Origin: Acetomicrobium hydrogeniformans
GTDB taxonomy: Bacteria; Synergistota; Synergistia; Synergistales; JAFGMB01
DNA length: 64,000 nt
Assembly (NCBI GenBank): GCA_016841745.1
Contig: JAENYO010000009.1
Coordinates: 1-64,000, forward strand
Reading direction: 5' to 3'
Part shown: piece by piece, positions 28,203-47,852 of the stretch
Position numbering within the stretch: position 1 is the stretch's first letter
Layout: each line of letters starts with the position of its first letter
Notes under the pieces: model-generated
Database searches by the model: none
The model's input: only the letters and a program-made list of their open reading frames with translations
What the model was told of the DNA's origin: nothing
Made by a program: the position numbers and the translations under genes

Positions 28203-29714
28203 ATGACTGATGAAATGATCAATAACAGTGAAGAAGAAATGCTTGGAGGTGAAACAGTCGATAATCTTGAAAGCATGGAAAGCATGCTTCAGGACTATGA
28301 AGTGGAGGAGATCCACAAAGGGAAAGTCGTCAAGGGTACTATTGTAGAAAGTAATGAAGATGGCTGGCTTGTTGATGTGGGTTACAAGTGTGAAGGATCT
28401 CTACCTGCCCACGAATGGACCCACAGAGTACTGGTGGAGGAATCCAAGAAACCCCAGATCGGTGATGAAGTGGAAGTCCAGGTGATCAATGTTCGCCGTG
28501 GTGAAGAATCACAATTGATCGTAAGCCGTTGGAGATGTGAGTTTGACCGTCGCTGGAATCAGCTTGAGGAACTTGCTTCTGCAGGAGAACCCATTTCCGT
28601 AAGGGGACTGAGAAAAGTCAAGGGAGGACTTATGGTCAATTGCTGTTCACTGGAAGGCTTTGTACCAATCTCCCATCTCGCAGAAGAAGGCAGAGGAGTC
28701 AATCCTGGACGTTTTGTGGATGATGTCTTCGATGTCAAGCTTCTTGAAAAAGACAAAAGAAAAAGAAGACTTGTCCTTTCCAGAAGGGCTCTGCTTGAAG
28801 AAGACCTTTCTTCTCTTAGAGAAAGATTTTATGAATCAACTGCCGAGGGCGATATTCTTGAAGGTACAGTCAGTAGTATCACTTCCTTCGGGTCTTTCGT
28901 TAATCTCGGATGTATTGACGGTCTCATCCACATAAGTGAACTTTCCTGGAAGAGAAACGCTAAACCCAAGGATATCCTTAAAAAGGGAGACCATATAAAG
29001 GTTAAAGTAATAGGTATTGACAAGGAAAACAACAGGATTTCACTTAGTCTCAAGCAGACGCTGCCTGATCCATGGACTGTGGTCAATGAAAACATAAAAG
29101 CAGGAGATCAGCTTGAGGGAATAGTTACCAACGTTACAGACTTCGGAGCCTTTGTCGAGGTCCAGGATGGGATCGAAGGTCTTATTCACATTGGTGATCT
29201 GAGCTGGTCCCGTATCAAGCATCCCAAGGAAGTCCTGAAAAAAGGCGAAAAGGTTGATGTTGTGGTGCTTGAGGTTGATGGTGACAAAAAGCGTATTAGT
29301 CTTGGTTACAAACAACTGCATGATCCATGGAGCGGCATAGAGGATCGTTATGGTAAGGGGTCAGATATCCAGGTAAAGGTCGTGAGGCTTGCGGATTTCG
29401 GCGCATTTGTAGAGATCGAAGAAGGAGTGGAAGGCCTTATCCATATATCCCAGCTGAGCAACCGAAGGGTGGAGACTCCAAAAGATGTACTGGAGGAAGG
29501 GCAGGAAGTTACAGCAAGAGTAATTGAAGTAAATCCTGCTGAGCGAAGAATGAGACTAAGTATAAGTGCCCTTCAGGAACAGGAAGTAAAGAAAAAGAGA
29601 GAGGGAGAACGTAAAAAAAGACATTCTGAAACCGAAAAACATAAAATGGTTACAGTTCAGGAAGATACTTCCATCACAATTGGAGATGTTCTCAAAGATA
29701 TGATGAATCAATAA
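28203..29714 (+). CDS. rpsA: S1 RNA-binding protein, ribosomal protein S1-like
   Basis: A 503-residue protein with five S1 OB-fold domains, at about residues 36-108, 122-190, 208-280, 295-365 and 380-450. The last three carry the standard SFGxFVxL/DFGAFVE and GLIHISELS signatures; the first two are more divergent, as in S1 proteins that use them to dock on the ribosome. The C-terminal 50 residues are Lys/Glu-rich. It probably supports mRNA binding by the 30S subunit. It is downstream of ispH by 23 bases and closed by a terminator. Confidence 0.9.
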   Translation: MTDEMINNSEEEMLGGETVDNLESMESMLQDYEVEEIHKGKVVKGTIVESNEDGWLVDVGYKCEGSLPAHEWTHRVLVEESKKPQIGDEVEVQVINVRRGEESQLIVSRWRCEFDRRWNQLEELASAGEPISVRGLRKVKGGLMVNCCSLEGFVPISHLAEEGRGVNPGRFVDDVFDVKLLEKDKRKRRLVLSRRALLEEDLSSLRERFYESTAEGDILEGTVSSITSFGSFVNLGCIDGLIHISELSWKRNAKPKDILKKGDHIKVKVIGIDKENNRISLSLKQTLPDPWTVVNENIKAGDQLEGIVTNVTDFGAFVEVQDGIEGLIHIGDLSWSRIKHPKEVLKKGEKVDVVVLEVDGDKKRISLGYKQLHDPWSGIEDRYGKGSDIQVKVVRLADFGAFVEIEEGVEGLIHISQLSNRRVETPKDVLEEGQEVTARVIEVNPAERRMRLSISALQEQEVKKKREGERKKRHSETEKHKMVTVQEDTSITIGDVLKDMMNQ

Positions 29715-44523: not shown

Positions 44524-47139
44524 TCAGTGGTTCTCAGTTGCAATGTTTATGTGTCCATCTTTAACGTTAACGTAGATGCTTGTCCCTTCGGTTATTTCCC
44601 CCTCTATTATTGCCCTTCCGATCTTGTTTTCAACCTGATGGACCAGCAGTCTTTTAAGGGGTCGAGCACCGAATGCCAGGTCATAACCATCTTTTGCTAT
44701 TAGATCTAAGGCATTGTCATCAACTCGGATGTCCATATTCTGTTCTTCAAGTCTGGATGCCAGTCGGTTTATCAATATTAAAACTATTTGCTTTATTTCA
44801 TCCAGAGTTAGGGGTTTGAATATGACTATATCATCGACCCTGTTAAGAAACTCTGGTCTGAAATACTGTCGCATTTGGGTCATTACCCGTTCTCTGATCT
44901 CCAGTTGGATTACGCCTGAAGCAGAGATCCCTTCAGTAAGATATTCTGATCCTATGTTACTTGTCATTATTACAACAACATTTTTAAAATCCACCGTTCG
45001 TCCATGGTTATCAGTAATCCTCCCATCATCAAGGACCTGAAGTAATATATTAAATACATCATGGTGAGCCTTCTCGATCTCATCGAAAAGGACTACGGAA
45101 AAGGGTTTTCTTCTTACAGCTTCAGTCAATTGCCCGCCCTCTTCGTACCCTATGTATCCAGGAGGAGCACCAATTAATCGTGATACCGAATGTTTTTCCA
45201 TATATTCAGACATATCTATCCTGATTATATTTTCTTCAGAATCGAAGAGAGCTTCTGCAAGAGATCTGGCAAGTTCAGTCTTGCCAACTCCTGTAGGGCC
45301 TAGGAAAATAAAAGACCCTATTGGTCTGTTGGGATCTTTTATCCCTGCTCTTGCTCTGATAACAGCATCTGAAACCAGCTGTACAGCATCGTCCTGTCCA
45401 ATAACTCTCTCATGAAGTATTTTGTCCAGGTTCAGTAGTTTCTGTCTTTCTCCTTCCATAATCCTCGAAACAGGGATCCCAGTCCACTTACTGACAATTT
45501 CAGAGATCTCATTCTCGGTGACATCTTCCCTCAGTAGAGGAGATGTACGTGATCTGTATTTATTCTGTTCATCTTCTGCGCGAAGAAGTTCATCCTGTAA
45601 TCGAGGCATCTCGCCGTGTTGAAGTTCCGCAGCTCGGTTAAGGTCATATTCACGTTCAGCTTTTTCAATACCATGTTTCACAGTTTCTATTTTTTCCCTA
45701 AGTTCACGAACCCTGGATATGATATTTTTCTCATTATCGTAGCTGGCTTTAAGAGTTTCAGCTTCAGCACGGGTATTATGGAGTTCTTTCTGTACCTTTT
45801 TAAGTCTCTCGGTACTGGAACTATCGTTCTCTTTCTTCAGCGCTGCTTCTTCAATTTCAAGCTGCATAACCTTTCTTGTACGTGTATCCAGTTCAGAAGG
45901 CATGGAATCCATTTCAGTTCTGAGCATGGCACATGCTTCATCAATGAGATCGATAGCCTTATCTGGTAGATATCTACTCGTGATATATCTGTTTGACAGG
46001 ATAGCGGCGCTTACTATGGCATTGTCCTTTATTCTGACACCATGATGGATCTGAAAGCGATCTTTAAGACCTCTCAGGATTGAAATGGTATCTTCAACAG
46101 TAGGTTCCTCAACCAGAATAGTCTGGAAACGTCTCTCAAGGGCTGCATCTTTTTCAATATATTCTCTGTATTCATCTAAGGTTGTAGCCCCGATACAGTG
46201 AAGTTCACCTCGAGCAAGCATGGGTTTAAGCATATTTCCTGCGTCAATAGCCCCTTCAGCTTTCCCAGCTCCTACTATGTTGTGTAATTCATCCACAAAC
46301 AGGATTATTTTCCCTTCACTATGTTTGATTTCATCCAGGACTGCCTTGACTCTTTCCTCGAACTCTCCCCTAAACTTGGCTCCTGCAAGCAATGATCCAA
46401 TATCAAGTGCAAATACGGTCTTATTCTTAAGCCCTTCTGGAACATCCCCTCTTACAATCCGTTGCGCCAGACCTTCTGCGATAGCCGTTTTACCTACCCC
46501 TGGTTCCCCGATAAGGACAGGGTTGTTCTTTGTCTTTCTGCTGAGGATTCGGATAACCCTTCTGATCTCTTCATCTCGTCCGATTACAGGATCCAGTTTC
46601 CCTTTCTTGGCAAGATCGACCAGATCCCTTCCATATCGCTCAAGAGCCTCATATATTTTTTCAGGATTGGGACTCTGGACTCTCTGGTTACCCCTGACCT
46701 CAGTAAGAGCTTTAAGGAATAAATCCCTTGTAATACCGGATGACCTTATGAGATGGGCTGTTGAAGAACCGGGATCATCGTCCATAAGAGCAAGAAAAAG
46801 ATGTTCAACGGAAACATATTCGTCTCTCATCCTTGTCGCAATATCATTAGCCTGCAACATGATTCTGGAAATCCTGGGTGAAATAATGATCTTCCCTGGT
46901 TCGACTCCAGGCCCTGAAACCTTAGGTTTTTTATCAAGTTCTCTATGCAGTGACGTTAACAGGTTTTTTTCTGATATGTTCATTCTTTTGACCAGCGAAA
47001 ATATAAGGCCATCTTGCTGCTCAAGAAGGGCTGCTAACAGGTGGATAGAATCAACTTCCTGCTGGCCGTTCCTCATGGCAATATCCTGTGCATCGGAAAT
47101 TGCCTGTTGTGATTTTTGTGTGAATCTGTTTATGTCCAT
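44524..47139 (-). CDS. clpB: ATP-dependent disaggregase ClpB
   Basis: Hexameric AAA+ chaperone that resolubilises protein aggregates with DnaK. The 871-residue protein has the N domain (1-145), NBD1 with GEPGVGKTA, the coiled-coil M domain (about 400-530) that distinguishes ClpB from ClpC/ClpA, and NBD2 with [10 protein letters not shown] choose the ATG ending at 47139 ([10 protein letters not shown]), just after GGAGGT; a farther ATG would add seven residues before that site. A sigma70-like promoter and repeats at 47184-47234 suggest heat-shock repression. Confidence 0.96.
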
Positions 47140-47183
47140 GGGTACCTCCATCCTTACCATAAATTATATCTGGCTAAGCGAAT

Positions 47184-47234
47184 CTGACCATTACTGACAC
47201 TAGACAATTATAATGGTCAGGCCTGGTCAGTCAA
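47184..47234 (-). promoter_or_regulatory. clpB promoter with overlapping operator-like repeats
   Basis: On the minus strand, TTGACT (47234-47229) and TATAAT (47212-47207) are 16 bases apart, a near-consensus promoter about 65 bases upstream of clpB. On the plus strand the same stretch has GGTCAGG-CCT-GGTCAGT (47215-47231), a tandem heptad with three-base spacing like the CtsR box (GGTCAAA-NNN-GGTCAAA), and a perfect inverted repeat CTGACCATTA/TAATGGTCAG (47184-47193 and 47211-47220). A repressor bound here would cover the promoter. There is no CIRCE element. Confidence 0.6.
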
Positions 47235-47360: not shown

Positions 47361-47852
47361 ATGAAAGTATGGGATAAGGATCTGTTCAAAACAAAGTCTC
47401 TTGTAAAGGCAGCTCTTATAGGGAGTGTGTACTGTGTTCTTGTAGTGATATTTGCCCCCATATCCTATGGTCCTGTTCAGATTCGAATAGCAGAGAGCCT
47501 TACTCTTCTGCCATATCTCTGGATCGAAGCAGTTCCTGGATTGTTCATAGGATGTCTTCTGGCAAATATGATTGGCGGATTTGGAATAATTGATGTGGTT
47601 TTCGGGAGTATTGCCACCCTTCTCGCCGCTGTCATAACAAGGAAAATGCCAAATCTGTTTTTAGCTGCTGTACCCCCTGTTATTGTAAATATGGTAATAG
47701 TAGGAGCCTATCTGTCTCTGTTGCTTGATCTTCCTTTCATCCCCACATCCCTTTACATTGCAGTGGGGCAGGCAGGGGCATGTTTTGGTCTGGGAATACC
47801 TTTAATATGGCTGATACAGAAACATTTGGGCAAAAAAACAACAGGCAGATAG
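47361..47852 (+). CDS. queT: QueT family queuosine-precursor transporter
   Basis: Small ECF-type substrate-binding membrane protein, 163 residues, about five to six helices. LVVIFAPISYGPVQIRIAESLTLLPYLW and GLFIGCLLANMIGG are characteristic of the QueT (formerly DUF988) family, thought to import preQ1 or a related queuosine precursor. It would use a shared energising ECF module encoded elsewhere. The leader (47235-47360) holds a weak promoter (TTGTTT/TAATGA) but no preQ1 riboswitch that I can recognise. Its stop codon lies inside a terminator stem. Confidence 0.88.
   Translation: MKVWDKDLFKTKSLVKAALIGSVYCVLVVIFAPISYGPVQIRIAESLTLLPYLWIEAVPGLFIGCLLANMIGGFGIIDVVFGSIATLLAAVITRKMPNLFLAAVPPVIVNMVIVGAYLSLLLDLPFIPTSLYIAVGQAGACFGLGIPLIWLIQKHLGKKTTGR

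Follow-up and report, generated by a model that had tools for sequence, protein, structure and literature searches.

The clpB promoter region

The window, that is, the whole 64,000-nt stretch of Acetomicrobium hydrogeniformans DNA analyzed here, carries clpB on the minus strand and, divergent to it, a QueT transporter gene (47361-47852, plus strand). The features of the clpB promoter region are given in Table 1. The start of clpB is probably the ATG at 47139 (MDINRF), located behind GGAGG, as in relatives. A match to this gene at E ≤ 1e-250 was found in 141 of 185 Synergistota genomes.

Table 1 Position and character of the features at the clpB promoter (numbering of the window)
Feature	Position	Strand	Description
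Box A, GGTCAGGCCTGGTCA	47215..47229	+	Exact match to GGTCA-N5-GGTCA; CtsR-type direct repeat filling the clpB -35/-10 spacer
Box B, TGTCAGTAATGGTCA	47199-47185	-	One mismatch; direct repeat that follows the -10 closely and faces box A
-35 hexamer, TTGACT	47234-47229	-	clpB promoter
-10 hexamer, TATAAT	47212-47207	-	clpB promoter; region conserved in the five-genome alignment
Left arm of 10-base inverted repeat, CTGACCATTA	47184-47193	+	Inner half-site of box B and flank
Right arm of 10-base inverted repeat, TAATGGTCAG	47211-47220	+	Inner half-site of box A and flank; two bases shared with the -10
clpB	44524..47160	-	Putative regulated gene; ORF with Clp_N, AAA and ClpB D2-small domains

A preliminary description of this locus had proposed that GGTCAGG-CCT-GGTCAGT, upstream of clpB, keeps the heptad spacing of a CtsR operator, and this was confirmed (47215-47231, plus strand). 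It had also placed a near-consensus promoter between two repeat elements. The promoter, which is directed towards clpB and has a 16-nt spacer between its hexamers, indeed carries 11 of 12 consensus letters, but the boxes do not flank it: the spacer is occupied by box A, and box B comes after the -10. In each box GGTCA is repeated directly with a period of 10 bp. The two boxes are oriented towards each other, with starts separated by 30 bp, and the pair ends 46 nt upstream of the probable start of clpB. A second TATAAT is found between box B and this start (47163-47168, minus strand), for which TGGTCA in box B would be a poor -35.

The reported 10-base inverted repeat is perfect, with its arms 17 bases apart. 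It was rejected as a separate element: the arms are the inner half-sites and flanks of the two facing boxes, and the repeat search joined these boxes into an inverted repeat of 15 nt at 80%.

Only one exact GGTCAN5GGTCA was found in the window (0.1 expected per 64 kb), and at up to one mismatch there were three boxes, compared with 3.8 expected. The one-mismatch count is thus not enriched, so the significance of the boxes rests on their position and recurrence. When the clpB promoters of five genomes were aligned (this genome, G030-G032 and G120), the flanks were seen to have drifted, whereas the box cores (GGTCA) and the region from -35 to -10 were kept. Box A was kept in G030-G032 and showed one change in G120, and box B was kept in all four relatives.

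CtsR in this genome and in the phylum

CtsR had been considered unexpected in a Synergistota-like genome, and a different or new regulator had been suggested; neither view was supported. The genome encodes a full-length CtsR of 160 aa (L001:1243-1722, minus strand; PF05848, E 6.3e-32 in the profile search), with an N-terminal winged helix-turn-helix domain (PF05848; 109.5 bits, cut-off 23.1) and a C-terminal dimerization domain (PF17727; 61.5 bits, cut-off 23.8). The protein matched the CtsR-DNA complex 3h0d with E 1.5e-26, aligned over residues 4-157. Its structure model (pLDDT 90.9) had 3h0d_B as best fold match (TM 0.74), and 6fh4 was also matched. The motif VPSQINYV was invariant in 24 of 24 aligned CtsR rows. 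CtsR was present in 173 of 185 Synergistota genomes, and in 112 of the 115 with a completeness of 90% or more and a contamination of 5% or less. An hrcA gene is also present in this genome.

In this genome, ctsR is followed by clpC after a gap of roughly 360 bp. On the coding strand this gap holds no ORF of at least 60 aa, its three frames being broken by stops, and no mcsA was seen in it. The only clpC found in the genome is the one behind ctsR, and the gap contains no box of its own for clpC.

The tree placed the Synergistota CtsRs (65 rows) on one side of a branch and 20 Firmicutes rows on the other (SH-aLRT 98); it was a quick tree with long branches, and six of the 71 Synergistota proteins were left out (five misread frames and one duplicate). 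This topology is consistent with old vertical descent of the Synergistota CtsR and with loss of the third glycine of the loop, described below, after family f11 had split off.

Glycine loop and McsB

The RGGGGY loop of CtsR (G64-G67) is held to sense temperature (PMC12634643). The CtsR of this genome has RGGHG at residues 63-67 and lacks the Bacillus-type tetraglycine RGGGG, which characterizes the mechanism of control and is no part of the definition of the family models. Among 71 Synergistota CtsRs, RGGHG was the most frequent loop (58), followed by RGGNG (7), RGGGG (4) and RGEHG (2). The RGGGG loop should belong to the four proteins of family f11 (L011-L014), which branches off first among the Synergistota CtsRs in the tree. 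Among Firmicutes CtsR loci, RGGGG was observed in 56 of 56, these being the best-matching loci of one scan and not a survey.

The McsB domain PF00217 turned up in 55 of 185 genomes, but neither in this genome nor in G120. This absence is no proof, because the B. subtilis control was silent for PF00217 and for CtsR as well, although B. subtilis has both according to the literature. Since the search gave no McsB for this genome, CtsR is probably removed without arginine phosphorylation, by analogy with Oenococcus oeni.

Recurrence of the box across the phylum

Upstream regions of up to 300 nt were searched on both strands for GGTCA-Nx-GGTCA, with x from 0 to 12. The samples were ctsR in 71 of 173 genomes, hsp20 in the 30 best of 82, and clpB in 70 of 141 (the 30 best matches plus 40 picked for spread over genera). 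All upstream regions were kept in the main gap scan; an earlier scan omitted those of 100 nt or less (2 of 91).

At x = 5, a box with at least 9 of 10 letters was found upstream of ctsR in 56 of 71 genomes, of clpB in 29 of 70 and of hsp20 in 20 of 30. The 12 other gaps gave 0 to 5 and a reversed half-site gave 0 to 2 in these three sets, so that at this cut-off the scan peaked at gap 5 only. Under a first-order Markov null at the same cut-off, the means were 0.77 (ctsR), 0.67 (clpB) and 0.30 (hsp20), with maxima of 5, 4 and 3, respectively. Lowering the cut-off to at least 8 of 10 letters raised the counts to 69 of 71 for ctsR and 51 of 70 for clpB, but this is weaker evidence because the other gaps then also gave 7 to 41 and 7 to 24, respectively. 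Boxes of at least 9 letters were missing from 41 of 70 clpB and 10 of 30 hsp20 upstream regions.

Facing pairs, with a minus-strand box followed by a plus-strand box 28 to 37 bp downstream, occurred in seven of 71 ctsR, 14 of 70 clpB and 13 of 30 hsp20 upstream regions (null means 0.01 to 0.03). The opposite order was not observed at 28 to 37 bp in any of the three sets; it occurred three times within 60 bp (at 26, 27 and 47 bp). Most promoters of ctsR, of the CbpA-type dnaJ and of the Zn-peptidase gene carried a single direct-repeat box with no facing partner. In addition, 26 exact strict-pattern sites were found in other genomes: nine before clpB, one before ctsR, and the remainder unassigned or inside ORFs.

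Upstream of Firmicutes ctsR genes, boxes of at least 9 letters were found in 28 of 56 cases at gap 5, with 15 at gap 11 and seven at gap 1. Five clostridial ctsR promoters (L262, L267, L269, L271 and L299) have the facing layout too, with a minus-strand box upstream and a plus-strand box 36 to 38 bp downstream; these facing boxes differ from those at clpB in standing at ctsR and in their slightly wider spacing. The layout is therefore not peculiar to Synergistota.

Candidate regulon in this genome

In the whole genome, the exact box was found eight times and the reversed pattern three times. The eight were at clpB, at hsp20, at a Zn_peptidase_2 (yugP-like) gene, around bioY (two), at a dnaJ start, and in coding sequence (two). 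The one-mismatch pattern GGTCARNNNTGGTCA gave 32 matches, compared with 24 for the reversed control; most of these matches are thus due to chance, and the whole-genome count is uninformative. This list added ctsR, hrcA and a CbpA-type dnaJ, as well as the second box of the pair at both clpB and hsp20. The names clpC, groESL, dnaK, dnaJ and CbpA-type were read by eye from translations.

The boxes at clpB, ctsR, hrcA, cbpA and the Zn-peptidase gene lie over the -35/-10 region or over the predicted transcription start. The ctsR gene itself carries an operator-type box, GGTCAGTATTCGTCA, over its -35 (TTGACG). At hrcA (G000:C7:427817-427899, L233), the box lies over the -35 TTGACA with a CIRCE element downstream, and this arrangement makes joint control by CtsR and HrcA likely. 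The box of the CbpA-type dnaJ lies just past TATAAT. This gene was present in 105 of 185 genomes, and among the 30 best-matching relatives a box of at least 9 letters was found in 18, compared with 0 to 1 at other gaps.

The Zn_peptidase_2 gene, followed by DUF6391, has its exact box at L003:1501-1515 and was present in 167 of 183 genomes. Among the 30 best-matching relatives, boxes of at least 9 letters were found in nine (0 to 2 at other gaps) and boxes of at least 8 letters in 27 (1 to 12). Across the phylum (upstream regions of L317-L346), these boxes mostly coincide with the -35 of a promoter that is itself conserved and reads TGACCAATATTG(AC/CT)C ... TAAAAT. The yugP-like membrane peptidase thus seems, from its promoters, to belong to the CtsR regulon. 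One half-site is GAGCA in many relatives, and control there may therefore be weaker or lost.

The preliminary description had proposed looking for the repeat before other heat-shock genes, and it occurs before hsp20, ctsR and hrcA; groESL, which has a perfect CIRCE (G000:C6:55440-55466, L232), showed no CtsR-type box of at least 9 letters in the surrounding 3 kb, and clpC has none of its own. Absence of recurrence and of conservation had been named beforehand as the outcome that would speak against the proposal. The box proved to recur and to be conserved.

Four further candidates were rejected as targets. The two exact boxes flanking bioY (G000:C2:28574-28588 and 29415-29429; L004 and L005) are about 840 bp apart, and neither is at the bioY TATAAT. 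The box at the dnaJ that follows dnaK overlaps the dnaJ start, with no promoter seen by eye; the box in a valS-like gene (named by eye) is inside the coding sequence; and the best box at a second hsp20 of this genome, on C8, has 8 of 10 letters.

Interpretation of the clpB repeat

The boxes, their placement on promoters, their recurrence and the ctsR gene are features of the DNA itself. The clpB repeat is very probably an operator, here a double one, of CtsR, the class III heat-shock repressor. The proposal of a CtsR-box-like operator at a repressed heat-shock promoter is upheld to the extent that the box recurs, correctly spaced and located on core promoters, phylum-wide at ctsR, clpB, hsp20 and the CbpA-type dnaJ, and in this genome at hrcA. 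The published CtsR operator, A/GGTCAAA NAN A/GGTCAAA, lies over the -35/-10 region or the start site (PMC12634643). Several observations count against this reading: the heptads here are GGTCAGG and GGTCAGT rather than GGTCAAA, 41 of 70 clpB and 10 of 30 hsp20 upstream regions carry no box of at least 9 letters, the one-mismatch matches in this genome hardly outnumber the control, the two exact boxes of bioY are left without explanation, and clpC has no box of its own.

From these features we infer CtsR binding, repression, heat induction and an arrangement of dimers. Each direct-repeat box, with its two GGTCA half-sites 10 bp apart, would bind one CtsR dimer. One dimer would sit in the -35/-10 spacer, and the other would cover the expected start of transcription some three helical turns further downstream, facing the first. 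RNA polymerase would be kept off clpB in unstressed cells, until CtsR is inactivated by heat or unfolded protein and clpB is freed. Predicted to be freed together with it are ctsR-clpC, hsp20, the CbpA-type dnaJ and the membrane Zn-peptidase gene, as well as the hrcA-dnaK group, the latter jointly with HrcA.

The 10-base inverted repeat might instead be a palindromic operator for another regulator, possibly a new one, the direct repeat being coincidental. We consider this very unlikely. The inner arms do form a perfect inverted repeat in this genome, and G030 and G032, compared by eye, keep nine symmetric bases with matching changes; but two facing boxes with A/T-rich flanks explain the symmetry, the genome encodes CtsR, and the single boxes that prevail at ctsR, the CbpA-type dnaJ and the Zn-peptidase gene have no facing partner. 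It is extremely unlikely that no regulator is involved and that the boxes arise merely from -35 elements such as TTGACC together with chance. One half-site does coincide with the -35 in the ctsR, hrcA and Zn-peptidase promoters, but no promoter element accounts for the other, at a distance of exactly 10 bp, and box B at clpB and the cbpA box are downstream of the -10. The contrast between gap 5 and the 12 other distances at ctsR, clpB, hsp20 and the CbpA-type dnaJ likewise argues against chance.

Control of clpB by HrcA (through CIRCE) or HspR (through HAIR, consensus CTTGAGT-N7-ACTCAAG), as in other phyla, is equally improbable, even though HrcA is present and the genome has two CIRCE sites. 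These two are at groESL and hrcA, and no CIRCE (TTAGCACTC-N9-GAGTGCTAA) was found in the window at up to three mismatches. HAIR gave six matches in the window at three mismatches (3.8 expected), none of them near clpB.

Comparison with known CtsR systems

The probable CtsR operator at clpB can be compared with the B. subtilis regulon (ctsR-mcsA-mcsB-clpC, clpP and clpE). Both systems have a repressor of the same two-domain family, directly repeated heptads that overlie the core promoter with 3 nt between them, ctsR followed by clpC, and a ctsR that is autoregulated in B. subtilis and carries its own box here. They differ in that McsA and McsB were not found here, in the loop (RGGHG compared with RGGGG), in the targets (here, as predicted, clpB, hsp20, the CbpA-type dnaJ and the Zn-peptidase gene) and in the heptads, which here end in AG and not in AAA. 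Oenococcus oeni and Lactobacillus plantarum run CtsR without McsA and McsB, neither of which was found here, and have a small heat-shock gene and clpB as targets, as proposed here (PMC6305308 and PMC3842655); for L. plantarum, clpB and hsp1 are named (PMC3842655). According to the same two papers, the L. plantarum hrcA operon has a CtsR element beside CIRCE, as here, but expression there did not bear that element out. These lactic acid bacteria differ from the present case in being Firmicutes, across which the glycine-rich domain of CtsR is called highly conserved (PMC6305308).

Among open-licence papers, we found no described CtsR regulon in Synergistota and no link between CtsR and yugP. The accessible part of PMC9318921 gives CtsR-family and HrcA genes and clpB only as putative CodY targets, and "CTSR" in PMC10867827 is an item in a reactor data list, not the repressor. 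Systems of this kind are known, and judging from these papers this member and some of its wiring are new. The finding is real and mostly an ordinary CtsR operator; less ordinary are the loop variant, the failure to find McsB in 130 of 185 genomes, and the peptidase target.

A fuller reading, which we put forward tentatively and hold to be rather doubtful as a whole, would make the Synergistota CtsR an old, vertically inherited branch whose loop was rebuilt after the f11 split, with the third glycine replaced, mostly by histidine. It would be McsB-free in most lineages and control targets of its own (ClpB, Hsp20, the CbpA-type DnaJ, the yugP-like peptidase and, jointly with HrcA, hrcA-dnaK) by way of operators that are either single boxes or facing pairs. 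With histidine in the loop, the threshold temperature would be shifted, or CtsR would gain a second input, for example pH.

The CtsR regulon, usually described as Gram-positive (Firmicutes), is here placed in a Gram-negative phylum, with named targets that can be tested. A Zn_peptidase_2 (yugP-like) membrane peptidase is proposed as one of them. In addition, dozens of CtsRs from the phylum vary naturally in the glycine loop, the supposed thermometer of the repressor, so that the role of this loop could be tested by exchanging it between proteins.
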